NCBI GenBank assembly: GCA_025934355.1
Contig: JAICYF010000005.1
Span: forward strand, 1-41,020
Source of the DNA: Acidothermaceae bacterium
GTDB lineage: Bacteria > Actinomycetota > Actinomycetes > Acidothermales > Acidothermaceae
Reading direction: 5' to 3'
Length of the DNA: 41,020 nt
In this document: positions 1,861-35,772 of the stretch, in pieces
How positions within the stretch are numbered: position 1 is the first letter of the stretch
Layout: each line of letters starts with the position of its first letter
Notes under the pieces: model-generated
The model's database searches: none
Told to the model about the DNA's origin: nothing
The model's input: only the letters and a program-made list of their open reading frames with translations
Made by a program: the position numbers and the translations under genes

Positions 1861-2694
1861 CTAAATCGCGACCTCGTCGGGCCCTGCAGGCTCGGCGAGC
1901 GCGGCGCCGTAACCCGTCTCGACGTCGTACCCGCCGAAGATGCTCGACGGGAGCATTTTCAAGTTCTTCTCCACGCTTAACGCAGCCTGCTGTAGCGGCC
2001 GGCGCAGCGTGTCGAGCCGTCCAAGATAATTCTCAGCCGGCGCGGGAATCGAGATCGCGGCGACGACCCGGCCGGTCTGGTCGCGGATAGCCGTGGCCAG
2101 GCAGGCGACTCCTAGCTGGCGCTCTTCCAGGTCATAGGCAAAACCTGTGCGGCGCACCTCCTCCAGCTGTGTGCGCAGCAACGCAGGGGAGTTGCGCGTG
2201 TGCGGCGTGAACCGACGCAGAGGGGCGCTGAGAACCCGGTCTACGACGGGACCCGGGGCGCCAGCCAGGAGTACCTTCCCCAACGCAGTCGCGTACAGCG
2301 GGTTGCGGGCACCGGGTCGCGTGTTCACGCGGCCGGCGACGTGGCTCGTCTTGAGCAGGTAGACCAAGTGAGACCCTTCGCGCACCGCCAGGTGAGCCTG
2401 GAGTCGGACGTCCTCGGCGAGGCGCTCTAGCGCTATCTGGGCTCGATCGTGCAGCGCTCGCATCAAGGGCGCCTGGGTGCCGACCTCGAACATCCAGATT
2501 GCGAGGCGATAGCGCCCGCTCGCGGTGCGCTCGAGTGCCCCTGCCGCGGTCAGACTCACCAGCAGCCGATGCGCGCTTGCGCGCGTCATGCCAAGCAGTT
2601 CGGCGCACTGGCTTACGCCGAGCTGCGGATGCTGCCGGAAGAGTTCCAGGACGGTGAACGCCTTGAGAACAGTGGTTGACGGCTCTGTTGGCAT
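1861..2694 (-). CDS. IclR-family transcriptional regulator
   Basis: A 277-residue protein with the IclR layout. An N-terminal winged helix-turn-helix (about residues 10-70, including LGVSQCAELLGMTRASAHRL) is followed by an effector-binding domain (about 85-250). The latter carries the family-typical YATALGKVLLA segment and the late GVACLATAIRD and AISIPAP segments. The ATG at 2694 is chosen because GGGAGGTGG lies just upstream; in-frame codons further up have no such site. IclR proteins usually bind a small aromatic or organic-acid metabolite and control an adjacent catabolic operon. Here the gene is divergent from the RraA/CoA-transferase genes, so it probably controls the cluster and itself. 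Repeated CGTCTC half-sites in the shared promoter region are candidate targets. Confidence 0.9.
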   Translation of the reverse strand: MPTEPSTTVLKAFTVLELFRQHPQLGVSQCAELLGMTRASAHRLLVSLTAAGALERTASGRYRLAIWMFEVGTQAPLMRALHDRAQIALERLAEDVRLQAHLAVREGSHLVYLLKTSHVAGRVNTRPGARNPLYATALGKVLLAGAPGPVVDRVLSAPLRRFTPHTRNSPALLRTQLEEVRRTGFAYDLEERQLGVACLATAIRDQTGRVVAAISIPAPAENYLGRLDTLRRPLQQAALSVEKNLKMLPSSIFGGYDVETGYGAALAEPAGPDEVAI

Positions 2695-2823
2695 GCGCTC
2701 CACCTCCCTATTCGTCGCCAGCCGCAGCGCCGCCGCTGCGGCCCGTCGGCGGTGACCGCCGATGGGCGGATGCATCGGATACTCGCACGCATCCTGACCG
2801 CGTGGGCCAACCGCGAGTAACAA

Positions 2824-2922
2824 ATGCGTCTCGCTACTCAAGACGTCACCGTAGACATGCGTCTCTCATGGAGGGTAGCTCTGAGTGTCACGCGGCGCCG
2901 CCAGGCTCTGGCGCGACGTCTC
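2824..2922. promoter_or_regulatory. Divergent promoter/operator region with repeated CGTCTC half-sites
   Basis: Between the iclR-type gene and the RraA-like gene, ATGCGTCTC occurs at 2824-2832 and 2857-2865 (33 bp apart, three helical turns). CGTCTC occurs again at 2917-2922 within GCGACGTCTC. A possible -35-like TAGACA (2852-2857) precedes the second copy, but no convincing -10 was found. Related GAGAC/GTCTC palindromes occur upstream of the ABC importer (14015) and between the MFS and aldo/keto reductase genes (21251). I infer an operator region, plausibly for the IclR protein. Confidence 0.4.
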
Positions 2923-2945: not shown

Positions 2946-3659
2946 ATGTACAGGAGCGTCAACAGGGTGGGGCGTCAGGTTCCTGAGGCGGTGGAGCACC
3001 GACTCGGTCGAATCGACACCGCAACTCTTTCCGATGCGATGGGTCGACACGGCGCGATGTCGCACCGCATCCGGCCGCTTGATCTTGGTATGAAGATCGT
3101 CGGCTCAGCGCTTACGGTGCAGTGCCCGCGCAACGACAACCTCATGGTCCACAAGGCGCTTCAGCTCGCCCGCCCGGGCGATGTCCTGGTTGTCGACACC
3201 GGCGGCACATACGACGCCACGGTTCTCGGTAGGAACATGGCGCTGTTTGCGAACCGGGTCGGCGTAGTGGGCGCCGTAATAGACGGGAGCGTCCGCGACC
3301 GCTCCGGGATCATCAGCATCCCTTTTCCAGTCTTCTGCGTCGGGCTCGTGCCCAGGTCTGCCGTCAAGCATGCGATGGGGTCGGTCGACGTCCCGATCGT
3401 GTGCGGTGGTGTCGTCGTGCAGCCTGGCGACATCGTCGTCGGTGACGAGGACGGCGTTGTCGTCGTACCGCACCAGATCGCCGAAGAAGTTGCCGAAGCC
3501 GCCGAAAAACGTTTGGAGATGGAAAATCAGCAGGCCCTGGACGTGGTTGACAATGATCTCCCACTCGAAATCCTCTATGGCGACACTTGGGTCGACGAAC
3601 GGCTCGAACCCAACCTGCACGAGCCCTTTCAGGTCCCCGGTCACATCAACCCGCGCTAA
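2946..3659 (+). CDS. RraA-like 4-hydroxy-4-methyl-2-oxoglutarate aldolase / oxaloacetate decarboxylase family protein
   Basis: This 237-residue protein is of the RraA/HMG-aldolase fold. It shows the GDVLVVDTGG segment and the metal/substrate-site phrase GAVIDGSVRDRSGI, in which R117 and D118 match the family's conserved Arg-Asp pair. Characterised members with intact motifs are divalent-metal class II aldolases that release pyruvate from 4-hydroxy-4-methyl-2-oxoglutarate or 4-carboxy-4-hydroxy-2-oxoadipate, and they also decarboxylate oxaloacetate. Others (RraA itself) only bind RNase E. The catabolic neighbours favour the enzyme. The ATG at 2946 follows a purine-rich AGAGGGAG; translation from further upstream would give a non-family, Pro/Arg-rich leader. 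The CoA-transferase gene starts 12 bases after its stop, so the two are co-transcribed. Confidence 0.82.
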   Translation: MYRSVNRVGRQVPEAVEHRLGRIDTATLSDAMGRHGAMSHRIRPLDLGMKIVGSALTVQCPRNDNLMVHKALQLARPGDVLVVDTGGTYDATVLGRNMALFANRVGVVGAVIDGSVRDRSGIISIPFPVFCVGLVPRSAVKHAMGSVDVPIVCGGVVVQPGDIVVGDEDGVVVVPHQIAEEVAEAAEKRLEMENQQALDVVDNDLPLEILYGDTWVDERLEPNLHEPFQVPGHINPR

Positions 3660-5259: not shown

Positions 5260-6162
5260 ATGACAAGGCGCCGCGTCGCGATCGTGGGCTCGGGCAATAT
5301 TGGCACCGATCTCATGGTCAAGGCGTTGCGCTCCGAGCATCTCGAAGTTGCCGCAGTCGTCGGCATCGACCCGAACTCGGATGGTCTGTCGCGCGCGAGA
5401 GCAGCCGGCGTCGACGCATCCGCCGAGGGCGTCGACTGGTTATTGACGCAGGACCCGCTTCCGGACCTCGTGTTTGAAGCGACGTCAGCGAAAGCGCATG
5501 CGGCGAACGCACCGAAATATGCGGAGGCGGGAGTCCAAGCGATCGACCTGACACCGGCCGCCGTCGGGCCATTCGTCGTCCCGTCGGTCAACCTAGTCGA
5601 GCATCTAGACACCCCGAACCTCAACATGATCACGTGCGGCGGACAGGCGACCATTCCGATCGTCGCTGCGGTGAGTGCGGTGGTTGAGGTGCCCTACGCA
5701 GAGATCGTCGCCTCAATCGCGTCTCGGTCCGCTGGACCAGGAACGCGCGCAAATATCGATGAATTCACGATCACGACCGCGCGCGGCGTCGAAGAGATCG
5801 GCGGTGCGGCGCGTGGGAAGGCGATCATCGTTCTCAATCCGATGGAACCTCCGATGATCATGCGGGACACGGTCTTTTGCGCCCTGCCTGAAGAAGCCGA
5901 TCACGAGAAGATCGCGCGGTCGATCGAGGCGATGGTCGCCCACGTTAGGGACTACGTACCGGGATACCGTCTCATTGCCGAGCCTCAGTTCGATGATCCG
6001 CGACCTGAGTGGGACGGCTGGGGGCGCGTCACCGTTCTCCTCGAAATCGAAGGAAACGGCGACTATCTGCCTTCATACGCCGGCAACCTCGACATCATGA
6101 CGGCCGCCGCGATTCGCGTTGGTGAGCAGCTCGCACGAACCGAAGGGCGTCACGGCCGATGA
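5260..6162 (+). CDS. mhpF: Acetaldehyde dehydrogenase (acylating)
   Basis: This enzyme oxidises acetaldehyde (or another short aldehyde) with NAD+ and CoA to the acyl-CoA. At 300 residues it has family length. An N-terminal Rossmann segment [15 protein letters not shown] binds NAD, and the catalytic cysteine is C126 in [11 protein letters not shown], where the family places it. The dimerisation/aldolase-contact half follows, including [16 protein letters not shown]. It overlaps the following aldolase gene by four bases (ATGA), as in known mhpFE/dmpFG pairs, whose products form a complex that channels the aldehyde. No 2-oxopent-4-enoate hydratase or ring-cleavage gene lies nearby, so the upstream chemistry is not the standard meta-cleavage route. 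Confidence 0.93.
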
Positions 6163-7196
6163 GCGAGATCGATCTCCGAATCACCGACTCCACCCTGCGA
6201 GACGGCAGTCACGCTATGGGTCACCAATTCCACGTGGACGACGTGCGGGCCACCGTTCGTGCCCTCGACCGCGCCGGAGTTCCGGTCATCGAAGTGGCTC
6301 ACGGCGACGGTCTCGGGGGCTCGTCGTTCAACTATGGGTTCTCCGCGACCGACGAGATGGCCCTTGTCGATGTCGCCGTCGAGGAAGCGCGTACGGCGAA
6401 GATCGCTGTGCTCCTCTTGCCTGGGGTTGGCACCACAAATCATCTTCGTGCCGCTGCCGACCGCGGTGTACGTGTCGTCCGCGTCGCGACGCACTGCACC
6501 GAAGCAGACATCGCGACCGAACACTTCGAGATTGCCCGCGAGTTAGGTCTTGAGACCGTGGGCTTCCTCATGCTGTCGCACATGCTCGATCCGGCCGCCC
6601 TCGCGGTGCAGGCGCGAATCATGGTCGACGCAGGTGCCGAATGCGTGTATGTCGTCGACTCTGCCGGGGCTCTCGTTCTTGATGACGCTGGCGATCGCGT
6701 CGCAGCGATCGTGAGCGCGGTCGGCGACGCCGCCCAGGTCGGCTATCACGGCCACAACAACCTCGCACTCGGGGTTGCCAACTCGGTGCTGGCCTATCGC
6801 GCGGGCGCGCGGCAAATCGATGGGGCGACGTGCGCACTCGGCGCAGGAGCAGGGAACTCCCCGACCGAGGTTCTCGCGGCGGTCTTCGCGCGGCTTGGCA
6901 TCGCCACCGGAATCGATCTCGCGGCGATTCTCGACGCGGCCCATGATGTTGTGCGTCCCTACATGAAGCGCGAACCGACCATGGACCGAAACTCGGTCAT
7001 CATGGGGTATGCCGGTGTCTACTCGAGCTTTCTGCTCCACGCGGAGCGCGCTGGCCGACGGTATGGGGTGCCGCCGCACAAGATATTGGAAGAGGTGGGG
7101 CGGCGTCGCTATGTCGGCGGTCAAGAGGACATGCTCATCGACATCGCGATCGGTATGGCTAGCGACACTGCCCGCGTGGCGGAGAGGGAACGCTGA
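6159..7196 (+). CDS. mhpE: 4-Hydroxy-2-oxovalerate aldolase
   Basis: A class II aldolase that cleaves 4-hydroxy-2-oxoacids into pyruvate and an aldehyde, which is passed to the acylating dehydrogenase encoded just upstream. The 345-residue protein is a DRE-TIM barrel with [15 protein letters not shown] (R14, D15, H18), metal ligands H197 and H199 in YHGHNN, and [12 protein letters not shown]. The C-terminal [16 protein letters not shown] region contacts the dehydrogenase in solved homologues. Its start overlaps the dehydrogenase stop, and its own stop is two bases before the next GTG, so translation is probably coupled. It may accept a longer 4-hydroxy-2-oxoacid than the classical substrate; the sequence does not decide this. 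Confidence 0.93.
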
Positions 7197-13212: not shown

Positions 13213-13234
13213 CTTCTCGCCGAAAGAGGTGCCC

Positions 13235-13834
13235 ATGTCCGTCTCATCAGTGGCTCAGAGCCGTCCGGTGGTGCTCGCCGACCTCGTTCCCGCAACCAGA
13301 CTGCGCGACCTCGCTTTTGTGATCGCCGGTGCTGGATTCGTCGGCGTGGCGGCGCAGATATCGGTTCCCCTGCCCAACACGCCCGTGCCGGTCACGGGTC
13401 AGACCTTCGCCGTGTTTTTGACGGGCGCCGCGCTCGGGTCACGACGATCACTCGCCAGCATGGCGCTGTACCTCGTTGCCGGCGCGGCGGGGGTCCCGTG
13501 GTTCGCCGGACACCAGTCGGGATGGGGGGGTCCGGCTTTCGGCTACATCATCGGGTTCTTGATCGCTGCTGCGGTGGTGGGCCGCCTTGCGGCGGCCGGG
13601 GGCGACCGAACGCCAGCGCGGACTGTGGTCACGATGCTCCTGGGCACCGTGACGATTTACGCGGTGGGCGTGCCATGGCTCATGGCCTATGCGCACATGA
13701 ACGTTCCGAGTGCCATCAGTGCGGGAGTGCGGCCGTTTCTTGCCGGCGACGTGCTGAAGGTGTTGCTCGCCGCCGGTCTGCTGCCTGCGGCTTGGTGGGG
13801 CGTCGGGCGCCTGCGTGGGCATCAGCAGCACTAA
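13235..13834 (+). CDS. bioY: Biotin transporter BioY (ECF S-component)
   Basis: BioY is a six-helix membrane protein that binds biotin and imports it, alone or with an energy-coupling factor module. The 199-residue product has the family phrase VPVTGQTFAVFLTGAALGSR, followed by YLVAGAAGVPWFAG and FGYIIGFLIAA. It ends with a long hydrophobic stretch and a basic tail. The ATG at 13235 has AAAGAGG upstream; a GTG six bases earlier lies inside that site. No bioM/bioN genes are visible. Lying at the end of the operon that encodes the biotin carrier, carboxylase and carboxyltransferase, it most likely secures biotin for that enzyme. The 284 bases after it, up to the ABC importer, hold no gene I can support. 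Confidence 0.92.
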   Translation: MSVSSVAQSRPVVLADLVPATRLRDLAFVIAGAGFVGVAAQISVPLPNTPVPVTGQTFAVFLTGAALGSRRSLASMALYLVAGAAGVPWFAGHQSGWGGPAFGYIIGFLIAAAVVGRLAAAGGDRTPARTVVTMLLGTVTIYAVGVPWLMAYAHMNVPSAISAGVRPFLAGDVLKVLLAAGLLPAAWWGVGRLRGHQQH

Positions 13835-14118: not shown

Positions 14119-15222
14119 ATGCCCAACTCATTCCGCAGGGGTCGGGTCCTCGTGACCCTGACCGCGACGCTTGCGATGATCGCGGCGTGCAGTGGAGGGT
14201 CAAAGGGAAGCACGGGCACGAGCGGCGCAAGCTCGAGCAGTGCATCGACCCCGCCAACCGCAGCGACCACATCGGCCGCAGCTTCTGCGGACACCAGCTC
14301 CGCTGATCTCGAGGCCGCGGCCAAGAAAGAAGGCTCGCTTCTCTTCTACGCATCCGTCACCGAAACCTCGGCGAAGGCGCTTGCCGACGCCTTCGGCAAG
14401 AAGTACGGGATCGACACACAGGTGCTCCGGATCACCAGCGCGCAGCTGGCCGATAGGTTCTCGGCGGAAGCGGCCGCGGGCGCCCCGGCGGCAGACGCGG
14501 TCCTCATCTCCCGCACCGGGTTTACGACCGAAGCCGACAGCAAGGGATACCTCGTCCCGCTGAAGGAGGCCGGGATCCCCGGCTACCCAGGTGATCTCCC
14601 GACGCAGTTCATCAAGGACGACGAGGGCACGGCCGTCGTCATGGTTCAGGCCGCGGGTATCGGTTACAACACGGACCTCGTGAAGGGCGATGACATCCCG
14701 AAGAGCTGGAACGATCTGCTGAATCCGAAGTGGAAGGGCAAGATCGGTGTCGCAGACCCCAAGTCTTCGGCGTCGTACGTCGCAGAGTGGAACACCGTGG
14801 CGCAAGGGGTAGGTTCCGACTTCCTCAGCAAGCTCGGCGCACAGAAGATAAAGTCCTATGCCAGCGGCGCTCCTGCAGCTCAGGCCCTCGCGGCGGGCGA
14901 AATCGCGTTCAACCCGATGACGCTCTCGTCCCTCATCAATGAACCGAAGGCGAAAGGCGCTCCGGTCGACATCGTGGTTCCCGACCTGACAAGTGGTGCC
15001 GAGGTCGTGCTCGGCATCGCGGCCAAGGCCAAGCACCCCAACGCTGCCCGATTGTTCGCGCAGTACGCGCTGTCGCAGGAGGGTGCAAAGGTACTGGCTG
15101 ACGCAGCGGGCGAGATTTCTCCATATGACGCAGCCAAGTTGCCAAAGGACTATCACTCTCCTGATCTGGCAACCGCGCTGCCGATGACTAACGAGATTCT
15201 TGCCAAGATGGGCCTTGGCTGA
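14119..15222 (+). CDS. ABC transporter substrate-binding lipoprotein (family 1, Fe3+/organic-anion type)
   Basis: A 367-residue exported lipoprotein. Its signal sequence ends in the lipobox IAAC with the lipidated cysteine at 24, followed by a Ser/Thr/Ala linker to about residue 60. The binding domain begins LEAAAKKEGSLLFYASVTE. It contains TSAQLADRFSAEAAAG, AAGIGYNTDLVKGDDIPKSW and NPKWKGKIGVADP, all typical of the family that binds ferric iron, thiamine, sulfonates/phosphonates or small carboxylates. The ligand cannot be read. The permease and ATPase genes follow. Association with a TcuA-like dehydrogenase suggests an organic acid as ligand rather than iron. A strong promoter is not obvious, but palindromic GAGAC half-sites precede it. 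Confidence 0.9.
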   Translation: MPNSFRRGRVLVTLTATLAMIAACSGGSKGSTGTSGASSSSASTPPTAATTSAAASADTSSADLEAAAKKEGSLLFYASVTETSAKALADAFGKKYGIDTQVLRITSAQLADRFSAEAAAGAPAADAVLISRTGFTTEADSKGYLVPLKEAGIPGYPGDLPTQFIKDDEGTAVVMVQAAGIGYNTDLVKGDDIPKSWNDLLNPKWKGKIGVADPKSSASYVAEWNTVAQGVGSDFLSKLGAQKIKSYASGAPAAQALAAGEIAFNPMTLSSLINEPKAKGAPVDIVVPDLTSGAEVVLGIAAKAKHPNAARLFAQYALSQEGAKVLADAAGEISPYDAAKLPKDYHSPDLATALPMTNEILAKMGLG

Positions 15223-15295
15223 CCGAGTCCCGGCGAGCGACCGTCGTCGGATTGCGTCGTCGCGCACTGTGAGTTCAAGCGAAGGAAGAGCACCG

Positions 15296-17095
15296 ATGCA
15301 ACGCAGCAAGGGAACGCCACTCACTCGGGTGGCGTTCCCGCGCCGCATGGTGCCGTTGCCCGCGAGCGGCCGACTTGGCACTTTCGTGATCGGCCGCCGC
15401 CGTGTCAGTCCCTTCACGGCGGTGGGTGTGGCGCTGGGTGTTCTCGCCGCGTTTCTCGCGGTGTATCCCATCGCACGGGTGATTGTCGGGCTATTCGTCA
15501 CCGACGGTCGTCTCAGCGTGGCCCCGCTGAGAGATGCCTATTCAATCCCGGATTTTTGGCAGCTCATCGGCAACACCGTCGCAGTGGTCGTCGCGAGTAG
15601 TGCGTTGGCCCTCGTGATGGGTTCTGTGCTCGCTTGGCTAAATGAGCGGACCGATGCGCGCCTGGGCATTGTGACTGACTCGTTGCCGATGATCCCGTTC
15701 CTTCTGCCGCCGATCGCAGGCGCAGTCGGATGGGTGCTGCTCCTATCGCCGCGTGCAGGCCTCATGAACGGCGTGATTAGGGCTGCACTCGACAAGGTCG
15801 GAGTCTCCCTCAACGAGGGCCCATTCAACATTTTCACTTGGTACGGGCTGATCTTTGTCTACCTGCTCTACCAGGTTCCTTACGTCTTTCTTATGGTGTC
15901 GGCGGGTCTTCGGGCCAGCGACCCTAGCCTCGACGAGCAGTCACGCGTGTGTGGCGCGTCGTCATGGCGCACGCTGTGGCGCGTTACGTTCCCTGCCACA
16001 CGCCAGAGCCTCGGCGCTGCGGTCTTGCTCATGATGTGGCAGGGATTCTCTCTGTTCTCCGTGCCCGTGATTATCGGGACTGGAGCCCGGATCGACGTGC
16101 TGTCGGTGCGCATCGTCAACCTGTTGTCGTTCTCGTTTCCACCTCGTACGGGCGCCGCAGTGGGGCTCAGCTTCGTGGTGGTGCTCTTCGTTGGTGTGAC
16201 ATGGCTCTTGCAGCTGCGACTGTTGCGCTCGGGCCGCCACGCGACGATCGGCGGGAAGGGCCAGCGCGCAGTGCGTCTCGAGCTTGGGAGGTGGAAGTGG
16301 CCAGCGCGGGCGCTCGTTCTCGGTTATGGCGCCGTGGCAGTGGTTCTTCCGATCGTCGCGCTTGTGGTCGTTGCGCTCAACGGATACTGGACGACGAACA
16401 TCAACTGGGGTCGACTTAGTTTCACCGCCTTTCGCGAGTCGGTGTTCGGCGATCGCTTGACGCTCACCTCGATCAAAAACAGCGTTTCGATCAGCGTCCT
16501 AGGCGCGACCATCGGCATGGCCGTCGCTGCGATGGTGTCACTCGTAGTGATGCGTCGACGCGGACGGCTCGTCCAAGCGATGGACGGCGCGATCAAGCTG
16601 CCTTCCGTGTTCCCGCACCTCGTGATCGCAGTGGGATTCATCCTTGCCTTCGCAGGCGCACCGTTCAAGCTGGGTGGTACCACCGTCATCTTGCTGCTCG
16701 CATATATCAGCATCTACCTACCGCAAGGGTCGGTCGCCGCAGACTCTGCCGTGGCGCAGGTCGGGCGCGAGCTTTCGGAGGCGTCGCACGTAAGCGGTGC
16801 TGGCGGTGGCCGAACCTTCGCTCGCGTTTTTCTGCCACTCATCGTGCCCGGAGTCGTGGCCGGATGGGCGTTCCTGTTCGCGCATATGGCCGGCGACCTC
16901 ACCGCTTCCGCCGTACTCGCAGGGACGACGAATATGGTGGTCGGCTTCCGGATCCTTCAAGTGTTTGACAATGGCTCATACGCCCAGCTTGCGTCACTCG
17001 CATTAGTGCTTACCGCGATCACAGTGGTCGTCGTGACACTCGCTCTCGTGCTAGCACAGCGCCGCGGCCGATGGCGACAGCGGACGACGAGATAA
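15296..17095 (+). CDS. ABC transporter permease, two fused permease domains
   Basis: A 599-residue inner-membrane protein with about twelve hydrophobic segments. It consists of two BPD-type permease domains in tandem (about 45-320 and 340-590), as in FbpB-like importers. Each half has an EAA-loop: EQSRVCGASSWRTLWRVTFP in the first and ELSEASHVSGAGGGRTFARV in the second, where the ATPase docks. The ATG at 15296 follows GAAGGAAGAG; an upstream reading would overlap the binding-protein gene and is rejected. It forms the channel for the lipoprotein encoded 73 bases upstream and the ATPase encoded 43 bases downstream. One fused permease means a homodimer is not required. Confidence 0.92.
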   Translation: MQRSKGTPLTRVAFPRRMVPLPASGRLGTFVIGRRRVSPFTAVGVALGVLAAFLAVYPIARVIVGLFVTDGRLSVAPLRDAYSIPDFWQLIGNTVAVVVASSALALVMGSVLAWLNERTDARLGIVTDSLPMIPFLLPPIAGAVGWVLLLSPRAGLMNGVIRAALDKVGVSLNEGPFNIFTWYGLIFVYLLYQVPYVFLMVSAGLRASDPSLDEQSRVCGASSWRTLWRVTFPATRQSLGAAVLLMMWQGFSLFSVPVIIGTGARIDVLSVRIVNLLSFSFPPRTGAAVGLSFVVVLFVGVTWLLQLRLLRSGRHATIGGKGQRAVRLELGRWKWPARALVLGYGAVAVVLPIVALVVVALNGYWTTNINWGRLSFTAFRESVFGDRLTLTSIKNSVSISVLGATIGMAVAAMVSLVVMRRRGRLVQAMDGAIKLPSVFPHLVIAVGFILAFAGAPFKLGGTTVILLLAYISIYLPQGSVAADSAVAQVGRELSEASHVSGAGGGRTFARVFLPLIVPGVVAGWAFLFAHMAGDLTASAVLAGTTNMVVGFRILQVFDNGSYAQLASLALVLTAITVVVVTLALVLAQRRGRWRQRTTR

Positions 17096-17138
17096 CCGCA
17101 CGACCGGACTTATCGATTTCGTGAACGAGGAAGTGGAC

Positions 17139-18308
17139 GTGACATCCGACATGGAGGCCACATTGACGCCAAGGAGTCCTGACGTGGATTCTGTGGCCGC
17201 GCCACGCCGCGTCGTCGTCAGCGTTCGCGACATCGTCAAGCGCTTTCAGCGGGCAGGCGGGAGCGTCACAAATGCCGTCGACAACGTCGGGTTTGACCTG
17301 TTGGCCGGCGAGTTCTTGGTACTCCTCGGACCCAGCGGCTGCGGAAAGACGACGCTGTTGCGCACGATCGCCGGGCTCGAGCGGCCCGACGGCGGCACCA
17401 TCGAGATAGACGGTCGGTTGTGCGACTCCTCCGAGAATGGCGTTCACGTGCCGACTGAGCGACGCCGGCTCGGGATGATCTTTCAGTCGTATGCGCTGTG
17501 GCCGCACATGACCGTTTTCGACAACGTCGCCTATCCGTTGCGCAGCCAGCGCAAGCACAACAAGCGCGACATCGCCGATCGCGTGGAGCGAGTACTCACG
17601 ATGGTCGGCATTCCCGAACTGACGAAGCAGTATCCGGGCCAGATGAGCGGAGGGCAGCAGCAACGCGTGGCCCTTGCTCGCGCGCTTGTCGCGGGCAGCG
17701 ATCTCGTCCTCTTCGACGAGCCGCTGTCGAATGTCGACGCTCGCGTGCGTGAACAACTCAGATTTGAACTCGCCACGATGCAGCGAGACCTCGGTTTTGC
17801 CGCCGTCTACGTTACCCACGATCAATCCGAGGCCATGGGCCTGGCGCATCGGATAGCCGTCATGGAGTCGGGAAAGATCGTTCAGATCGGTTCTCCGCGC
17901 GAGATCTACGACGAGGCGGCCTCGCGCTATGTCGCCAACTTCGTAGGCACCAGCAACGAGATTCGCGGGAGGGTGCAGTCGGTCGAGCCGGACGGCACGG
18001 CATCCGTCACGACCGTGATAGGAACATTCGTCGGCACGTTGAGCAAGCCCGACATCGCTGCCGGCGACGAGGTCATTCTCGTGTGGCGCCCCGAGGACGG
18101 TGAGCCGAGCATCGAAGAACCGGCATCGAGCAACCGTTTCCGCGCGGTAGTCGAGGCGGCCCTCTTTCTTGGCTCGCATACCGAATACAGCATTCGCGTT
18201 GGTGAGAGCCGCTTTCGTCTATGGCGCGCGAGCCGGCGCCAGCTCAGCACTGACGCTGAAATCTGGGTGACTGTCGACGCGGCGAGCATGCGCATTCTCC
18301 GCCCCTGA
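17139..18308 (+). CDS. ABC transporter ATP-binding protein
   Basis: The cytoplasmic ATPase energising the preceding permease. Seen in about 389 residues: Walker A GPSGCGKTT, Q-loop IFQSYALWPHMTV, signature MSGGQQQRVALARAL, Walker B DLVLFDEPLSNVDAR and switch histidine VYVTHDQSEAMG. A C-terminal TOBE-type domain follows (from about 235), as in FbpC/PotA-like proteins. The GTG at 17139 is preferred because GAGG lies eight bases upstream; an in-frame GTG at 17121 and ATG at 17151 are alternatives. The stretch after the start up to about residue 25 is poorly conserved. The TcuA-like dehydrogenase gene follows after 64 bases and may share the transcript. Confidence 0.92.
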   Translation: MTSDMEATLTPRSPDVDSVAAPRRVVVSVRDIVKRFQRAGGSVTNAVDNVGFDLLAGEFLVLLGPSGCGKTTLLRTIAGLERPDGGTIEIDGRLCDSSENGVHVPTERRRLGMIFQSYALWPHMTVFDNVAYPLRSQRKHNKRDIADRVERVLTMVGIPELTKQYPGQMSGGQQQRVALARALVAGSDLVLFDEPLSNVDARVREQLRFELATMQRDLGFAAVYVTHDQSEAMGLAHRIAVMESGKIVQIGSPREIYDEAASRYVANFVGTSNEIRGRVQSVEPDGTASVTTVIGTFVGTLSKPDIAAGDEVILVWRPEDGEPSIEEPASSNRFRAVVEAALFLGSHTEYSIRVGESRFRLWRASRRQLSTDAEIWVTVDAASMRILRP

Positions 18309-18372: not shown

Positions 18373-19860
18373 ATGACGAGCGAGAGCTACGATGTCGTCG
18401 TTGTCGGTGCGGGAAACGCCGCGTTTTCGGCGGCGCACGCCGCCCGAGAAGAGGGAAGCACTGTTTGCGTGCTCGAGAAGGCGCCCGAAGCGGAACTGGG
18501 GGGGAACTCCTACTTCACGCTTGGGTCGTTCCGGACGACGTATGACGGTCTCGCCGATGTCATGTGTATCGTCGACGACCCTGGCGACGTCAGCACCGAC
18601 ACGCACGAGTTACCTTCGTACACGAAGGATGATTTCGCTGCTGACATGCGGCGCGTCACCAAGGGACGCACCGACGAACAGCTCACGCGAGTGCTCGTTG
18701 AGAATTCGTTTACCACGCTGCAGTGGCTTCATCGACATGGAATCAAGTTCAAGCTGCAGTCCGATAATCAGGTCTTCGAGGTCAATGGCAAGAAGCGCTT
18801 TTGGGGTGGCGGCACGATCGCGGTCGTCGGCGGCGGCATCGGTCTTATCGAGCAACACTTGTCGGCTGCCAAGAACTCGGGAATCGTGGTGAAGACAGAG
18901 CACCGGATGGTTGGCTTCCAACAGGGACCTACTGGCGAGGTGTCCGGCGTCGTGTGCCAAACGCCGAGCGGGCAAAAGGTGATTGAAGGAAAGTCTGTGG
19001 TTCTTGCGTCAGGCGGATTTGAGGCTGACGCGAGACTGCGTGCTACATACCTCGGTCCGGGCTGGGAGACGGCCCGCGTGCGGGGAAGCCGCTACAACAC
19101 CGGCGAGGCGCTCATGGCGGCGCTCGACTACGGCGCTCAGTCGTTCGGAAACTGGTCAGGCGCGCATGCGGTGGCGTGGGACAAGAACGCCGGTGTCTTC
19201 GGCAACCGCGTTCTGACAAACAAGCTGCAGCGGCATTCATATCCATTCGGCATCATGGTGAACACCGATGGTCGGCGGTTCATCGACGAGGCGTCGGACT
19301 TCCGCAACTACACGTACGCCATGGTGGGAGCAGCCATCTTGCGTCAACCTGGCGGCGTCGCCTTCCAGATCTTCGACAAGCAGGGCTCGGGGATGCTGCG
19401 GACGGATTACGGACACGAGGGCATCACGCGGGTGACGGCGGACTCCATCAAAGATCTGGCCGAAAAGATGGAGGTTGATCCCGACGCGCTGTGCGCGACG
19501 ATCGACGAGTTCAACGCCGGTGTTCAAGAGACGCCGTTTGACCCCACGGTCCTCGACGGCAAGCGAACCGTCGGAGTGAACCCGCCCAAGAGCAACTGGG
19601 CGCGCAAAATCATCGAACCGCCCTTCATAGCCTTTCCGACCGTGTGTGCGATCACGTTCACCTACGGCGGTCTGCGCGTCGACACTGACGCCCGCGTGCT
19701 GGACCAGCGCGATCAGCCCGTCCCGGGTCTACACGCGGCAGGCGAAGTGGTTGGCGGGTTGTTCTACGAGAACTATCCCGGGGGCTCAGGTCTGATGTCG
19801 GGTGCAGTCTTCGGCTACCGAGCCGGCAAGTCTGCGGCGGCGTACAGCAAGAGCCGATGA
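18373..19860 (+). CDS. FAD-dependent dehydrogenase, TcuA/fumarate-reductase-like
   Basis: A 495-residue flavoprotein of the FAD_binding_2 (fumarate reductase/succinate dehydrogenase) superfamily. The N-terminal FAD site reads YDVVVVGAGNAAFSAAHAA, then VLEKAPEAELGGNSYFT. The middle contains VVLASGGFEAD and the C-terminus GLHAAGEVVGGLFYENYPGG. The LEKAPExxxGGNS phrase and overall length recall TcuA, which oxidises tricarballylate to cis-aconitate, but 3-ketosteroid dehydrogenase-like enzymes share the fold. There is no export signal. The ATG at 18373 has GGGAGAG just upstream. It follows the ABC importer genes, so it probably oxidises the imported compound. No tcuB gene is adjacent; the membrane Fe-S protein at 24882 could accept its electrons. 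Confidence 0.83.
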   Translation: MTSESYDVVVVGAGNAAFSAAHAAREEGSTVCVLEKAPEAELGGNSYFTLGSFRTTYDGLADVMCIVDDPGDVSTDTHELPSYTKDDFAADMRRVTKGRTDEQLTRVLVENSFTTLQWLHRHGIKFKLQSDNQVFEVNGKKRFWGGGTIAVVGGGIGLIEQHLSAAKNSGIVVKTEHRMVGFQQGPTGEVSGVVCQTPSGQKVIEGKSVVLASGGFEADARLRATYLGPGWETARVRGSRYNTGEALMAALDYGAQSFGNWSGAHAVAWDKNAGVFGNRVLTNKLQRHSYPFGIMVNTDGRRFIDEASDFRNYTYAMVGAAILRQPGGVAFQIFDKQGSGMLRTDYGHEGITRVTADSIKDLAEKMEVDPDALCATIDEFNAGVQETPFDPTVLDGKRTVGVNPPKSNWARKIIEPPFIAFPTVCAITFTYGGLRVDTDARVLDQRDQPVPGLHAAGEVVGGLFYENYPGGSGLMSGAVFGYRAGKSAAAYSKSR

Positions 19861-19926: not shown

Positions 19927-21108
19927 CTATGCGCGGTCGAACGGCTTGCGTGCGACTAGTAGGGCGCTGCCTGCCAGCATCCCGCAGAGCGTGAGGAAAA
20001 TAGCTGCGATCCCTGTCGCGCCGGCGACCGCACCGACAGCGACCGGAACCGAGAGCTGACCCAGCCGGTTGCCTGACAGGCGCACGCCGAGGGCGGTCCC
20101 GCGAAGGCCAGCGGGTGCTCGGCCAGCCACCCAGGCCATCGTCAGCGGTTGCCCGAGCCCGAGTCCGAGTCCGATCAACACCATGAGCATGAAGAGCACC
20201 GGCACCGACCCGATCGCTGGCAGGAGTCCTAGTGCCGCGGCGGCGCAGGCGATGCTTAGGACCAGCAGTCGATGTGGCCCGAACCCGCGCGCGAGGACGC
20301 CGATTAACAGTCGAGTCGTCATGGAAGCGATCGCGCGCGCCGCGAGCAGCAGGCCGACGGTTCTGGGCGTGATACCGCGACTCTCGCCGAACGCGGGGAG
20401 GTAAGTAACGAGCACGTCAACGGTCGAGAGCACGGCGAGGCTTGCAAACATCGCTTCGCCCATCCCGCGCACCCTTAGCACTTTCCGCACCGCCGGAAGC
20501 GTCGCGGCCCGCGTGGCGAGATCCTCCCCCCGTGCCGTGGTGGGTACGCGTGCCAGCGTCGCCGCCACGATGCTCCCAGTCACCGCTATCGCCGCCGACG
20601 CAGTCAGTGCAACCGTCGTCCCTTGCCCGCCCTGCCACAGCGACGCCGCCATCGCCGGGCCGATCGCCTGTCCGAGCGAGACCATTACCGTGGTTCCCCC
20701 GAATCGGGCGCCATGGTCCTTGTCGCCGCCGGCGTTCGCCACGAGTGTCTGCAAGGCGACGGTGGCGAGCGTCTGCCCGAGGCCCACAATCGCCAGCATC
20801 GCGACGAGCGCAGCGATGTTGTGGGCGAAGACGAGTGCGATTCCGGTGGCAGCGATTAACGCAGTGCCGCTCGCCATGAAGAGCGCCTCGCCGAATCGGT
20901 CGGCGAGGCGGCCGGCAGGCACGGCGGCAAACAGCGCGAGCGCGGCAAAGGAGGCTCCTAGAACGCCAAGCTCGACAGGCGTCGCACCAAGGTGAACGGC
21001 TTGGTACGACACGATGACCCTGATGGCTTGGACAGCCGTCGTCAGCAGCAAGGTCACGAGCAGTGTTCGCAAGTACCACGTTCTCGCGGTCTTCACGTTG
21101 TCGGCCAC
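19927..21108 (-). CDS. Major facilitator superfamily transporter
   Basis: A 393-residue membrane protein with twelve predicted hydrophobic segments. The MFS loop 2-3 signature appears as AGRLADRFGEALFMASG, and the later loop as ARAIASMTTRLLIGVLARGFG. Its length and composition suit a drug/metabolite:proton antiporter or a small-molecule importer; the substrate is not readable. The GTG start at 21108 has no good ribosome site, but it gives a typical short basic N-terminus before the first helix. The gene is divergent from the aldo/keto reductase gene across a 216-base region that carries the GAGACAGTCTC palindrome, which suggests shared control. Confidence 0.9.
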   Translation of the reverse strand: MADNVKTARTWYLRTLLVTLLLTTAVQAIRVIVSYQAVHLGATPVELGVLGASFAALALFAAVPAGRLADRFGEALFMASGTALIAATGIALVFAHNIAALVAMLAIVGLGQTLATVALQTLVANAGGDKDHGARFGGTTVMVSLGQAIGPAMAASLWQGGQGTTVALTASAAIAVTGSIVAATLARVPTTARGEDLATRAATLPAVRKVLRVRGMGEAMFASLAVLSTVDVLVTYLPAFGESRGITPRTVGLLLAARAIASMTTRLLIGVLARGFGPHRLLVLSIACAAAALGLLPAIGSVPVLFMLMVLIGLGLGLGQPLTMAWVAGRAPAGLRGTALGVRLSGNRLGQLSVPVAVGAVAGATGIAAIFLTLCGMLAGSALLVARKPFDRA

Positions 21109-21324: not shown

Positions 21325-22329
21325 ATGGAACACACTTTCTTGGGCCGCAGCGGTGTGCGCGTGCCCCGCGTCGCGCTCGGGACGGCGACGTTTGGGCTGC
21401 AGTGTGACGAGAGTGAGTCCCGGGCGATCCTCGACCACGCGGTGGACCTTGGTTCGACCTGGTTGGACACGTCGACGAGCTATCCGCTGGGTAGCGGGCC
21501 CACCGTCGTCGGCGTCACCGAGGCGCTCCTTGGTCGCTGGTTGCGAGGTCGGCGCGAGAGCTGCTTTGTGTCGACGAAGGTGTACAACCGAACCGGCCCC
21601 GCGCCGTGGCAGCTTGGCCTGTCGCGGCACCACGTGATCAGCGCGGTCGACGGCTCGCTGGCTCGACTTGGCGCCGACTACATCGATCTGTTGCAGTTGC
21701 ACCGCTGGGACGCGCGAACCCCAGTGGAGGAGACGCTCGAGGCTCTTCGCATCCTGGTTGAGTCAGGCAAGGTTCGCTATGTCGGCTGCTGCAACTTCAT
21801 GGCATACCAGATGGCGCAGGCGATCACGCTGAGCGAGGTTTGCCGGCTACCGCTGCTGCAGACCGCGCAGCTGCGTTACAACCTGCTCACCAGAGGACCC
21901 GAAATAGAGGCTTTCCAGCTTTGCCGCGAGAAAGACGTGACCGTGCTCGCGTTCAACGTTCTCGCCGGGGGGATCCTCGCGGGCAAGTACGAGCGCGGTA
22001 AGGAACCGAGCTCGGAAAGCCGGTTTAGCGTTGGCGAAGCGGGCGAGCGTTACCGGGCACGCTATTGGAACGACACGACGTTCGACATCGTTGAGCGCGT
22101 CCGTGCGATCGCCAAGGAAGTGGGTGTTGCGATGCCCACGCTCGCAACGGCCTGGGTGCTCAGTCGACCTGAGGTCGTCGCCGTCATCGGCGCAAGCAAG
22201 GCAAGCCATGTCGACACCGCCTTCGAAGCACTGCAGCTAAAGCTGGACGACGATGTGGTCGCCGCGCTCGACGAGGCGACCGCCGAACGACGCCGTCCGA
22301 CGGAGGAGATCCAGTTTGAGTCCAGCTGA
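21325..22329 (+). CDS. Aldo/keto reductase
   Basis: A 334-residue NAD(P)H-dependent reductase of carbonyl compounds. The AKR catalytic tetrad is complete: Asp and Tyr in LDTSTSYP, Lys in VSTKVYN, His in LLQLHRWD. The cofactor-binding end includes AFNVLAGGILAGKY and VIGASKASHVDTAFEAL. The ATG at 21325 fits the family start (MEHTFLGRSGVRVPRVALG), with GAGGG a few bases upstream; a longer in-frame reading lacks homology. Its substrate is unknown. A 41-base gap containing AGGAGG separates it from the ComA-like gene, so they are in one operon and may act on successive intermediates. Confidence 0.9.
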   Translation: MEHTFLGRSGVRVPRVALGTATFGLQCDESESRAILDHAVDLGSTWLDTSTSYPLGSGPTVVGVTEALLGRWLRGRRESCFVSTKVYNRTGPAPWQLGLSRHHVISAVDGSLARLGADYIDLLQLHRWDARTPVEETLEALRILVESGKVRYVGCCNFMAYQMAQAITLSEVCRLPLLQTAQLRYNLLTRGPEIEAFQLCREKDVTVLAFNVLAGGILAGKYERGKEPSSESRFSVGEAGERYRARYWNDTTFDIVERVRAIAKEVGVAMPTLATAWVLSRPEVVAVIGASKASHVDTAFEALQLKLDDDVVAALDEATAERRRPTEEIQFESS

Positions 22330-22370: not shown

Positions 22371-23204
22371 TTGACAGACCAGAGCCCAGACCGTGCCTTC
22401 CCATTCCTGCGTCTCAACGACCGCGCGCAGCGGCCGCGCTCCGTGGGACTGACAGAGATTCGCGGTCCCTACTACACGGCTATGGGTCCTGCCTACCTTC
22501 GCGACCTGCTTGAGTCAGTGGGGCAGCATGTCGACTCGTTCAAGTTCCCAGGCGCCTCCATGCCGCTGATGTCGCGAGCGACACTCGCGGCCTTTATCGA
22601 CGCCTGCCACGACCACGGTGTGCAGGTCTCGACGGGCGGTCTGATCGAGTTCGTTCTGACCCGAGGCCCCGAAGCCGTCGAGAACTACTTCAATGCCATT
22701 CGCGACTACGAGTTCGACATCGTTGAAATTTCGGTGGGAATGCTCGCGGTGCCTCCGTCGGACTACCTGCGTCTGATTAAACGCGGCAAGAAGGCCGGGC
22801 TTCATGTGAAGGCCGAGGTCGGCGTGCAGTTCGGTGCGGGCGGCACCTCGTCGGTCTCCGAGCTCGAGGCCGAGGGCATCAGCGACCCGGCCTGGGCGGT
22901 TGAGCGCGCCAAGCGGGCATTCGACGCGGGCGCCGACATTGTGCTGCTCGAATCCGAGGGCGTGACCGAGCAGGTGCGCGAATGGCGCACCGACGTGCCG
23001 GCCGCGTTCATTCGAGAGTTCGGCCTGGAACGCGTGATGTTTGAGGCAGCCGACCCGCCGGTGTTCGAGTGGTACGTCAAAAACTACGGCCCCGAGGTCA
23101 ATCTGTTCATCGACCACAGCCAGATTTACCAGCTCGAGTGCCTGCGCTCCGGCATCTGGGGAACCAAGAACCTCTGGGGCCGAGTCATCACCTACAAGGG
23201 ATGA
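22371..23204 (+). CDS. ComA-like (phosphosulfolactate synthase family) protein
   Basis: A 277-residue TIM-barrel protein of the ComA family. Seen are RPRSVGLTEIRGPYY, VDSFKFPGASMPLM, GGLIEFVLTRG, DIVEISVGML, KAEVGVQF and the late NLFIDHSQIYQLECLRSGIWG. Known members join sulfite to phosphoenolpyruvate, making 2-phospho-3-sulfolactate for coenzyme M (methanogens) or sulfolactate (Bacillus YitD). No coenzyme M genes are visible here, and the neighbours are an aldo/keto reductase and a carboxyltransferase, whose ATG overlaps its stop (ATGA). It could run in reverse, releasing sulfite, or be a relative with a different nucleophile. The family call is fairly safe; the reaction is not. Confidence 0.8.
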   Translation: MTDQSPDRAFPFLRLNDRAQRPRSVGLTEIRGPYYTAMGPAYLRDLLESVGQHVDSFKFPGASMPLMSRATLAAFIDACHDHGVQVSTGGLIEFVLTRGPEAVENYFNAIRDYEFDIVEISVGMLAVPPSDYLRLIKRGKKAGLHVKAEVGVQFGAGGTSSVSELEAEGISDPAWAVERAKRAFDAGADIVLLESEGVTEQVREWRTDVPAAFIREFGLERVMFEAADPPVFEWYVKNYGPEVNLFIDHSQIYQLECLRSGIWGTKNLWGRVITYKG

Positions 23205-24727
23205 CGGCCACCACCGAACCCGGCGCTGCGAAGCGAAGCACCGGCGGCGCCCGGGAGATCACGATCACCGACACAACGTTGCGTGACGGTCACCAGTCGT
23301 TGTGGGCGGCGCGGATGCCGACCGCCATGATGCTGCCGGTTGCGCGGCACCAGGAGCGGGCTGGTTCGGGCCTCGTTGACGTGTTGGGTCACACCCATCA
23401 TGTGACTGCGGTGCGTTTCCTCCAGGAAAACCCGTGGGAGCGGCTCCGAGCGCTCCGCCGCATCTTCCAGCGTCGCCCCATGGTGGCGGGGCTCGGCGGG
23501 CAGGTGTTCGGCGTGTTCGACCGCGCGCCGGACGACGTTCGGCACGCCTTCCTTGAGCAGTTGGTCGAGTGCGGTGTCTCGTACGTGAGGGACGCACACG
23601 GGTTGCTCGATGTCGACTCCTACGTCGCGAACCTCGGCTACGCAAAGCGACTTGGCGCGCGGACGATCGCCGGTCTCGTCTTCAGTGAGAGCCCGGTGCA
23701 CACCGACGAGCTGTACGCGTCCCGCGCGCGAGAGATCATTGAGCGGGCCGATGCCGACTGGATCATGATCAAAGACTCAAGCGGGCTGTTAACTCCGGAA
23801 CGCACCGCCACGTTGGTACCCGCGCTCCGCGCCGCCGTCGGCGACCGGGTGCTGACCCTGCACAGCCACTGCATCACCGGCCTCGCCGGTCGCGTTTACA
23901 TGGTTGGTGTCGCGCACGGTGTCGACGACGTGCACTGCGCGATCTGGCCCCTCGCGCTGGGCTCATCGCAGCCGTCGCTTGCAACGGTCGCTCGCAACCT
24001 CAGGGAGGAGGGTTACCGAGTCGACATCGACGACCGCGAGATCGAACAGGCGAGCGAGTTCCTCGTTCAGGAAGCGCGATCGCGCGGTCTACCACTTGGC
24101 ACGGCGCTCGAGTATGACCAGTTCCACTATCGGCACCAGATGCCGGGCGGGATGCTCACGAACCTCGAGGTGCAGTTGCGCGATGCAGGTCTAGCTGACA
24201 GATTCGGTGAAATCCTCGCCGAGACATCGCGCGTGCGCGAGGAACTCGGTTGGCCGACGATGGTGACGCCGTACTCCCAGTTCGTCGTCAACCAGGCCGT
24301 GCTGAACGTGATAGACGGCGACCGCTATGCCACGGTGCCAGACCAGGTGAAGATGTATGCGCTCGGCTACTACGGCGCCCTTCTCGCTCCTGTTGATCCG
24401 AACGTCCTCGACCGCATTGTGACGAATGGGTCTCCCGCGATTACTGCCGACGCTGGTGATGTGCCTCACGCGTTACCGGGGTTGCGGAGGCAATTTCTGC
24501 AGGCGGACGACGCGCAGTTGCTGTTGAGGTTCATGTGCGCGGGCCCGGACGTAGACCGAATGCTCGAGCGGGAAGCTCGTGATCCGTCGACTAACGAGCC
24601 GGGCCTTGCACCCAGTTCGAGCCGTATCGCGGGACTGGTCGGTGTCCTTTCGCGGATCACCGAACGAGGCGTGGGCGGCGAGGTGGTCGTCGAGCGGCAA
24701 GGGCTGCGCGTGCGCGTGCGTAGCTGA
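23201..24727 (+). CDS. PYC/OadA-type carboxyltransferase subunit, paralogue 2
   Basis: A 508-residue paralogue of the protein encoded at 9131, with long identical stretches such as ELGWPTMVTPYSQFV and LLAPVDPNVLDRI. The active-site set is kept: DTTLRDGHQSLW (D24), K191 in MIKDSSGLL, H221 and H223 in LHSHCITG. The substrate segment is MVAGLGGQVFGVF, different both from the usual LLRGxN and from paralogue 1, so the two probably use different carboxyl acceptors or donors. An 18-residue Ala/Gly-rich N-terminal extension precedes the barrel. It has no biotinyl domain. The tail GGEVVVERQGLRVRVRS again resembles the biotin carrier N-terminus. No second carrier or biotin carboxylase gene is present, so both paralogues probably share the set at 7199-9141. 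Confidence 0.87.
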   Translation: MTATTEPGAAKRSTGGAREITITDTTLRDGHQSLWAARMPTAMMLPVARHQERAGSGLVDVLGHTHHVTAVRFLQENPWERLRALRRIFQRRPMVAGLGGQVFGVFDRAPDDVRHAFLEQLVECGVSYVRDAHGLLDVDSYVANLGYAKRLGARTIAGLVFSESPVHTDELYASRAREIIERADADWIMIKDSSGLLTPERTATLVPALRAAVGDRVLTLHSHCITGLAGRVYMVGVAHGVDDVHCAIWPLALGSSQPSLATVARNLREEGYRVDIDDREIEQASEFLVQEARSRGLPLGTALEYDQFHYRHQMPGGMLTNLEVQLRDAGLADRFGEILAETSRVREELGWPTMVTPYSQFVVNQAVLNVIDGDRYATVPDQVKMYALGYYGALLAPVDPNVLDRIVTNGSPAITADAGDVPHALPGLRRQFLQADDAQLLLRFMCAGPDVDRMLEREARDPSTNEPGLAPSSSRIAGLVGVLSRITERGVGGEVVVERQGLRVRVRS

Positions 24728-24881: not shown

Positions 24882-26963
24882 ATGCTCCGCATCGTCGTAG
24901 GCATGGTCGCCACTGCGGTCGCGTTCGCTGTCGCCGGACGACGGATGTGGTGGCTGTTGCGACTCATCAGGGTCGGGCAGCCAGCCGCTGACCGGGTCGG
25001 CGACCAACGCGCGACGCCGGTGAAGGGCCTGAAGTCTCAGGCCACTGAGGTGATCGGCCAGCAGCGATTGCTGAAATGGACCGTCTCAGGTGTTGCCCAC
25101 GCCTTCACGTTTTGGGCGTTCATCGTTTTGATGCTGACCATCGCCGAGGCATATGGCGCGCTGTTTGACGATCACTTCGGCATCGGGGGTTGGGCCGGCC
25201 TCGGCTTCATCGAGGACTTCTTCGCGGTGGCCGTGTTGGTCGCATTGCTGGTCTTCACGGGAATCCGGTATCGGCAGTCGCCCGCTAGACGTGGCCGCGC
25301 CTCGCGCTTCTACCATTCGCACACCGCTGCTGCCTGGGGCATCCTGGGCATGATTTTCGCCGTCATCGCGACCCTGCTGCTGTATCGCGGCGCGCAGATG
25401 AACACCGATCACTTCCCGTACCGGCCCTACGGCTGGTCGTTCGCCTCGTGGGTTATCTCCAAGTGGTTGCATCCCCTGGGTGCCGCCAACCAAGGCATCG
25501 AAACGTTCTTCATCCTCGCCCAACTCGTTGTGGTGCTGTCCTTCCTGGTGTTTGTCACATACTCCAAGCACCTGCACATTGTCTTCGCACCGATCAACGT
25601 GTACTTTGCGCGATCGCCCGACTCATTGGGGCCGTTGCTTCCGATGTATTCCGGCGATCACCGGATTGACTTCGAGAACCCCTCTGAGGAAGACAACTTC
25701 GGCCGCGGCCGCATCGAGGACTTCACGATGAAGGGCCTGGTCGATCTCGCGACCTGCACCGAGTGCGGGCGTTGTCAATCACAATGCCCGGCCTGGAACA
25801 CCGGAAAGGTGCTTAATCCCAAGCTGATTGTCACGGATCTGCGCGACCACTGGTTCGAAGAGGCACCACGGCTGCTCTCCGGTAAGGAGGCGGCTGAGTC
25901 GCTGCCGCCGCTCGTCGGGGTCGCGGAGGCGAACGGCGTCATCGATCCCGAAGCATTGTGGGCGTGCACGTCGTGCGGCGCCTGCGTGAACGAATGCCCC
26001 GTCGACATCGAGCACGTCGACCACATCATGGACATGCGTCGCCACCAGGTGCTGGTCGAGTCAGCTTTTCCCTCCGAGGCGGGAGGGATGTTGCGCAATC
26101 TGGAGAACGCCGGGAACCCGTGGGGCATGCCGTCGTCCACTCGGTTGGCTTGGACGGAAGGACTCTCGTTCAACATTCGGGTCATCGGCCCTGGTCAAAC
26201 CATCCCGGACGACGTTGAGTACCTGTACTGGGTCGGGTGTGCCGGGGCATCTGACGATCGGGCGCGACACACGACGCGCGCGTTTGCCGAATTGCTCAAC
26301 CTGGCTGGTGTCTCCTTCGCGGTGCTTGGGCCGCAGGAGACGTGCACCGGTGACCCGGCACGTCGTATAGGCAACGAGTTCGTCTACCAAATGCTGGCTC
26401 AACAGAACGTGTCGACCCTGACAAAGGCCAAGGTCCGCAAGATCGTCGCCACCTGCCCGCATTGTTTCAACACGATCGGGCGTGAGTATCCGCAGCTGGG
26501 CGGCAACTTTGAGGTGGTCCACCACAGTCAACTGCTGGAGCAGCTGGTCGCGGACGGGCGGCTCGCGCCCACGTCGTCCGTCGACTTGGCGGTCACCTAT
26601 CACGACCCGTGCTTTCTCGGCAGGCACAACAAGGTCTACGACGAACCGCGCTCGGTGCTCGACGCCGTGCCCGGCGTGACATCGACCGAGATGCCTCGTT
26701 GCAAAGGACGCGGATTCTGTTGCGGCGCGGGTGGCGCGCGCATGTGGATGGAGGAGCGGGTCGGCAAGCGCATCAACCACGAGCGCATCGACGAGGCGCT
26801 GTCGCTTGATCCGGACGTCGTCGCGACCGCGTGCCCGTACTGCCGGGTGATGCTCGGCGACGCGGTCAAAGACAGGCAGGCGTCAGGAAGCGCGCGTGAC
26901 GACGTTGTGGTCATCGACGTGGCCGAGGTGCTGCTGCGCTCAGTGCGACGAACCGACGGCTAA
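24882..26963 (+). CDS. Membrane Fe-S oxidoreductase, EtfD/HdrD-like
   Basis: A 693-residue membrane-bound electron-transfer protein. The N-terminal 240 residues contain several transmembrane helices resembling the nitrate reductase gamma (heme b) domain. Two 4Fe-4S motifs follow: CTECGRCQSQCP from C292 and CTSCGACVNECP from C362. Then come two CCG-type cysteine-rich domains (TCPHCFNTIG and FCCGAGGARM ... ACPYC). This order matches the mycobacterial Rv0338c/EtfD type, which passes electrons from ETF and acyl-CoA dehydrogenases to the quinone pool. GGAGG seven bases upstream fixes the ATG at 24882. It follows the cluster by 154 bases and could take electrons from the TcuA-like dehydrogenase, but it may simply be a housekeeping gene. 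Confidence 0.9.
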   Translation: MLRIVVGMVATAVAFAVAGRRMWWLLRLIRVGQPAADRVGDQRATPVKGLKSQATEVIGQQRLLKWTVSGVAHAFTFWAFIVLMLTIAEAYGALFDDHFGIGGWAGLGFIEDFFAVAVLVALLVFTGIRYRQSPARRGRASRFYHSHTAAAWGILGMIFAVIATLLLYRGAQMNTDHFPYRPYGWSFASWVISKWLHPLGAANQGIETFFILAQLVVVLSFLVFVTYSKHLHIVFAPINVYFARSPDSLGPLLPMYSGDHRIDFENPSEEDNFGRGRIEDFTMKGLVDLATCTECGRCQSQCPAWNTGKVLNPKLIVTDLRDHWFEEAPRLLSGKEAAESLPPLVGVAEANGVIDPEALWACTSCGACVNECPVDIEHVDHIMDMRRHQVLVESAFPSEAGGMLRNLENAGNPWGMPSSTRLAWTEGLSFNIRVIGPGQTIPDDVEYLYWVGCAGASDDRARHTTRAFAELLNLAGVSFAVLGPQETCTGDPARRIGNEFVYQMLAQQNVSTLTKAKVRKIVATCPHCFNTIGREYPQLGGNFEVVHHSQLLEQLVADGRLAPTSSVDLAVTYHDPCFLGRHNKVYDEPRSVLDAVPGVTSTEMPRCKGRGFCCGAGGARMWMEERVGKRINHERIDEALSLDPDVVATACPYCRVMLGDAVKDRQASGSARDDVVVIDVAEVLLRSVRRTDG

Positions 26964-35649: not shown

Positions 35650-35720
35650 GCGGGTGTAGTTCAATGGCAGAACATCAGCTTCCCAAGCTGACAGTGCGGG
35701 TTCGATTCCCGTCACCCGCT
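35650..35720 (+). tRNA. tRNA-Gly (anticodon CCC)
   Basis: A full cloverleaf of 71 bases. The acceptor stem is GCGGGTG paired with CACCCGC. The D-arm is GTTC/GAAC, and the anticodon stem TCAGC/GCTGA encloses the loop TTCCCAA with anticodon CCC at 35682-35684. The T-arm is GCGGG-TTCGATT-CCCGT with one G-T pair. The discriminator is T35720, and the 3' CCA is not encoded. It reads the glycine codon GGG. Confidence 0.95.
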
Positions 35721-35772
35721 CTTTGTGTCACCCGCGCTTCGGCGGCGCTCGCGCTTCCCGGACCGCGCGCGG

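Follow-up and report, generated by a model that had tools for sequence, protein, structure and literature searches.

Judged from its sequence, the ComA-like protein encoded at positions 22371-23204 of the window (the whole 41,020-nucleotide stretch of Acidothermaceae DNA analysed here) is not a phosphosulfolactate (PSL) synthase, because it fails the curated model of that enzyme and has lost its E[AG]RESG loop as well as the lysine of its ExGxK motif. Sequence and structural model together indicate that it is most likely a catalytic member of an HSA32-like branch of the ComA superfamily that keeps the ancestral chemistry. Our tentative reading, to which we give somewhat less than even confidence, is a metal-dependent enolate-type lyase or hydratase that acts on an unsaturated polycarboxylate in a self-contained acid catabolic route.

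The open reading frame is confirmed as a real gene of the PF02679 ComA family, and its product is distantly related to the enzyme that serves coenzyme M synthesis in methanogenic archaea. The frame is open from end to end, begins with a TTG codon preceded by AGGAGG and encodes 277 amino acids that match PF02679 at 240.8 bits (Pfam cut-off, 25.2). An AlphaFold2 model (pLDDT 84.6, pTM 0.84) has its best PDB matches in 1qwg (Methanocaldococcus jannaschii ComA; TM 0.77/0.85) and then Bacillus subtilis 1u83, and this ComA-type TIM barrel, with the Pfam score, upholds the family membership proposed in the earlier note. The nearest relatives are from two other actinobacteria, Micromonospora sp. CP22 (81% identity) and Glaciibacter superstes (75%). 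Translational coupling had been claimed on both sides of the gene. It stands towards the downstream carboxyltransferase, whose ATG at 23201 overlaps the ComA-like stop codon at 23202-23204 (ATGA, 23201-23204), but not towards the aldo/keto reductase, which lies in the same direction without overlap and whose stop at 22329 is followed by a 41-nt gap.

The TIGR03849 model of PSL synthase (EC 4.4.1.19) gave 78.3 bits for the window protein against a cut-off of 280, about 200 bits short, with M. jannaschii ComA and XcbB1, a coenzyme M enzyme of the bacterium Xanthobacter, as positive controls (326 bits each); a YitD part-sequence scored 227 bits. The ExGxK lysine after strand 5 (K137, M. jannaschii numbering) is Gln153 in the window protein and Gln in 91/91 branch members; it is kept in M. 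jannaschii ComA, YitD, XcbB1 and 16 other actinobacterial ComAs in which the motif was readable. After strand 6, ESEG(V/I)TE stands in place of the E[AG]RESG loop (RESG to ESEG); every one of the 17 further actinobacterial ComAs parsed still has this loop, as EARESG or EGRESG. The superfamily core is retained: the superfamily alignment shows K58, E119, E149, E194, E225 and N244, which are shared with M. jannaschii ComA, and R259. The 'many motifs' of the earlier match to PSL synthase hold for this core, but the motifs specific to that enzyme are absent. Little or no variation is seen in the superfamily alignment at K58, E119, E149, E225 and other positions, and most of the kept core residues lie at the C-terminal ends of barrel strands in the AlphaFold2 model, so the protein is predicted still to be an enzyme.

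An alternative, raised in the earlier note, is that the protein works much like a PSL synthase and that its operon serves sulfonate catabolism, with sulfite being released from, or added to, a sulfonated acid. Pfam ComA membership and the retained Lys58 and acidic core agree with it, as does another ComA branch found beside a TauE/SafE sulfite exporter on a Natrinema plasmid, but the shortfall on the PSL-synthase model, the branch-wide loss of lysine and loop, the lack of any identified sulfite-handling gene among the shared operon genes and the absence of ComB (PF04029) from the 84%-complete genome of the window organism leave it distinctly improbable. No coenzyme M or sulfolactate partner gene was present among the window proteins scanned, in agreement with the earlier observation that none was in view. 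The active site has probably been rebuilt in a way that makes sulfite handling improbable, and sulfite chemistry is not supported here. A SuyB/altronate-hydrolase-type gene (PF04295) is present in the window genome on a contig (C283) other than the window's. The Natrinema halophilum plasmid gene (L098 5905-8690) belongs to a different ComA branch, with the lysine kept and RESG lost, and also has LLM oxidoreductases and a TRAP transporter nearby; its product is a better candidate for sulfonate degradation.

The other proposal of the earlier note, a different nucleophile acting with phosphoenolpyruvate (PEP) or a related enol, survives as far as another nucleophile or related enol chemistry is concerned, given the conserved Lys58 and strand-end acidic residues. 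PEP itself is an unlikely substrate, since the protein has lost the loop that PSL synthases retain. Addition of a nucleophile other than sulfite to PEP within the operon, for which the fold in common with a PEP-using enzyme might speak, has in our view only the slightest chance of being correct: the RESG loop of the reference PSL synthases and other actinobacterial ComAs is missing, and no operon gene that makes or consumes a PEP-derived phosphate ester was identified.

Scanning of GTDB genomes yielded 418 relatives of the window protein; the 80 best, which were fetched, span many phyla, and further relatives occur on plasmids of haloarchaea, Salinibacter and methanotrophs. In the tree, a long, fully supported stem (100/99) sets this branch apart from all reference ComAs, and the window protein groups with those of Micromonospora and Glaciibacter in a clade of their own (100/100), again on a long stem. 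Residues specific to the branch (E29, R31, K147, Q153, a QFGAGG segment and D248-H249-S250-Q251) suggest a rebuilt pocket. The trio further carries G62A, F64M and F124M, at positions invariant in the rest of the branch, and P148A as another pocket change; since the first three alter otherwise invariant residues, the trio may act on another substrate than the MmgE-linked members described below. Among the sampled genomes of the class, only one more homologue was found, 55% identical and without the operon genes around it. In a Planctomycetia relative, the matched part of the ComA-like gene contains an in-frame stop codon (L061 10001-10819). Neither an assayed member of the bacterial branch nor a function assignment for it was found in the literature; the fold and superfamily are already known, and the window operon is, to our knowledge, an undescribed setting for the branch. 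The plasmid-borne members examined carry the NCBI annotation 'phosphosulfolactate synthase', so sulfonate metabolism may be wrongly inferred wherever the branch occurs, including its GTDB relatives.

The closest named relative appears to be plant HSA32. An approximate HSA32 sequence gave 38-41% identity, with 38% for the window protein against 23% for M. jannaschii ComA, and we take this approximate sequence to fall inside the branch. Kinship of the branch with HSA32, as read from these sequences, is a lead only. HSA32 acts with HSP101 in heat-stress memory (PMC11840417), and it is not involved in sulfolipid synthesis according to the title of a 2006 paper cited in PMC5415614. Both points, with the 38% identity to the approximate sequence, would suit a non-catalytic or protective protein comparable to HSA32 stabilizing HSP101, but the bacterial members keep strand-end acids that the approximate plant sequence alters (E149 to M, E194 to D) and in three genera the gene is a fixed part of a catabolic operon, which makes such a role very unlikely.

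Of 94 loci of the branch, 69 have an MmgE/PrpD gene adjacent to the ComA-like gene or close by. In all, 64 MmgE/PrpD genes were scored as upstream and co-directional, often with an overlap or a gap of no more than 60 nt, and the nearest solved relatives of this partner are cis-aconitate decarboxylase and 2-methylcitrate dehydratase. No third partner recurs with the pair, as no other family occurs in more than 4 of 82 immediate-neighbour proteins and those occurrences are scattered, and no paper naming both members of the pair was found in the open-access literature. MmgE/PrpD is absent beside the window ComA-like gene, and the 84%-complete window genome contains no match to it, so the link between this context and that of the window operon would be by analogy; the MmgE/PrpD copies of the Micromonospora and Glaciibacter genomes are on contigs other than those of the operon. 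On a Bradyrhizobium guangxiense plasmid (L097 5238-8666), MmgE/PrpD, PrpF and another ComA branch are encoded in one operon, near a gene for a tripartite tricarboxylate transporter component.

Gene by gene, one operon recurs in the window, Micromonospora and Glaciibacter, which bears out the catabolic-operon setting proposed earlier. The shared order is RraA-like, DmpF, DmpG, ABC binding protein, permease and ATPase, TcuA-like, aldo/keto reductase, ComA-like and MFS, with IclR beside it, so that the ComA-like gene is near the end (Table 1). The RraA-like orthologue of Micromonospora, 75% identical, scores 176.2 bits on NF006731 (cut-off, 179). The TcuA-like protein is 71% identical to the Micromonospora copy and 67% to that of Glaciibacter, and NCBIfam may name it too specifically; in the class, TcuA homologues are mostly 46-52% identical, and no other operon gene lies within about 1.5 kb of those fetched. 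In Glaciibacter the operon is preceded by unrelated genes, so it looks self-contained. In that genome it abuts genes resembling a mobile or conjugative element (L124 4897-13744).

Table 1. Features of the window that belong to, or adjoin, the shared operon.
Feature	Position	Strand	Remarks
IclR-family regulator	1861..2841	-	Orthologues adjoin the operon in Micromonospora and Glaciibacter
RraA-family aldolase/decarboxylase-like protein	2946..3659	+	Shared with both genomes
Acylating acetaldehyde dehydrogenase (DmpF type)	5260..6162	+	TIGR03215, 452 bits (cut-off 282); shared
4-Hydroxy-2-oxovalerate aldolase (DmpG type)	6159..7196	+	TIGR03217, 483 bits (cut-off 286); shared
ABC importer substrate-binding protein	14119..15222	+	Shared
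ABC importer fused permease	15200..17095	+	Shared
ABC importer ATPase	17121..18308	+	Shared
TcuA-like FAD dehydrogenase (tricarballylate dehydrogenase family)	18373..19860	+	NF006130, 546.3 bits (cut-off 369); shared
MFS transporter	19927..21108	-	Inverted in the window; downstream of the ComA-like gene in Micromonospora and Glaciibacter
Aldo/keto reductase	21325..22329	+	PF00248, 210.7 bits; start inferred from the Glaciibacter and Micromonospora copies
ComA-superfamily protein, HSA32-like branch	22371..23204	+	277 aa, TIM barrel; Pfam and alignment
PYC/OADA-type carboxyltransferase	23201..24727	+	Window-only addition; ATGA overlap; paralogue (55%) of 8939-10606

A CoA transferase, a biotin carboxylase, a BCCP, two carboxyltransferases, a thiolase and BioY were found only in the window and not in the other two stretches. 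The biotin carboxylase, BCCP and the two carboxyltransferase paralogues are inserted in and after the operon (7199-10606, 23201-24727), and the BioY-like gene, named from its sequence, is at 13229-13834. The downstream carboxyltransferase, which the earlier note had taken as functional context, was rejected in that role: it is a paralogue of the 8939-10606 copy and lies outside the shared operon, being absent from it in both other genomes. Directly downstream of it, 24882-26963 encodes a membrane-anchored Fe-S protein with two CCG domains (heterodisulfide-reductase-like), and a tRNA-Gly (ccc) gene is located at 35650-35721.

ComA chemistry is an addition, and the characterized reaction of the superfamily is addition or elimination at C-S. 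As MmgE/PrpD enzymes make or use, and TcuA-type dehydrogenases make, acids with a C=C bond, this chemistry points to addition or elimination on an unsaturated polycarboxylate; the same substrate class is suggested by the Bradyrhizobium ComA branch with its MmgE/PrpD, PrpF and tricarboxylate transporter component. We infer the metal use, reaction, substrate and order of steps of the ComA-like enzyme as follows. A metal-stabilized enolate would form beside a carboxylate, and the adjacent carbon would undergo conjugate addition or elimination. The substrate would probably be an unsaturated di- or tricarboxylate rather than PEP and sulfite, and the nucleophile or leaving group would most likely be water. 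In most relatives, the MmgE/PrpD enzyme, of a dehydratase or decarboxylase family, may supply or consume the unsaturated acid. In the window operon, uptake by the ABC importer would be followed by formation of the double bond by the TcuA-like dehydrogenase, the aldo/keto reductase could adjust a carbonyl, and the RraA-like protein and DmpG/DmpF would cut the product to pyruvate and an acyl-CoA. The operon genes could not be assembled into a full route that leads from a tricarboxylate to a 4-hydroxy-2-oxo acid.

Cleavage of C-C bonds offers another account of the same operon, in which a lyase of the retro-aldol or retro-Claisen type would act on a branched hydroxy- or keto-polycarboxylate and feed RraA and DmpG/F. 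Aldolase-type barrels rank after the ComA structures among the PDB matches of this TIM-barrel fold, and three other operon genes encode aldolase-type or acyl-forming enzymes; however, such generic fold matches, at a TM of about 0.5, carry little information, and the superfamily is characterized for C-S rather than C-C reactions, so that we consider a C-C lyase unlikely. The enolate-type lyase or hydratase could be extended to the branch as a whole, as a new class of metal-dependent hydratases or lyases for aconitate-type acids, widespread as a pair with MmgE/PrpD, recruited here into a new catabolic pathway and revealing the ancestral activity behind plant HSA32, but we regard this extension as doubtful. 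With its importer and recognizable end enzymes, the operon provides a tractable handle on the real substrate of the branch, a matter of relevance to the MmgE/PrpD-linked modules and perhaps to the descent of HSA32.

Compared with known systems, the window protein resembles ComA, XcbB1 and YitD in its PF02679 match, its TIM barrel (1qwg, 1u83) and residues K58, E119, E149, E194, E225 and N244, but differs in the Gln at the ExGxK position, the missing RESG loop and an extra QFGAGG segment, and no coenzyme M or sulfolactate genes were identified near its gene. With the approximate HSA32 sequence it shares the motifs TEIRGPYY/TEMRGPHY, KFxGGS, STG and DHSQIxxLECLR, whereas the plant protein is heat-induced, tied to HSP101 and lacks several of the strand-end acidic residues. 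The two-gene MmgE/PrpD and ComA-like modules of many bacterial phyla and haloarchaea belong to the same branch (50-64% identity to the window protein), but the window, Micromonospora and Glaciibacter proteins stand in their separate clade, in an operon without MmgE/PrpD. The operon has in common with tricarballylate utilization (Tcu) a TcuA-family FAD dehydrogenase above the curated cut-off; it differs in having an ABC importer instead of the Salmonella-type transporter, no identified TcuB, and extra RraA, DmpFG, AKR and ComA-like genes. Like the known DmpG/DmpF systems, the shared operon encodes DmpG and DmpF proteins that both pass their equivalog cut-offs; it differs in that no gene for aromatic meta-cleavage was identified in it.
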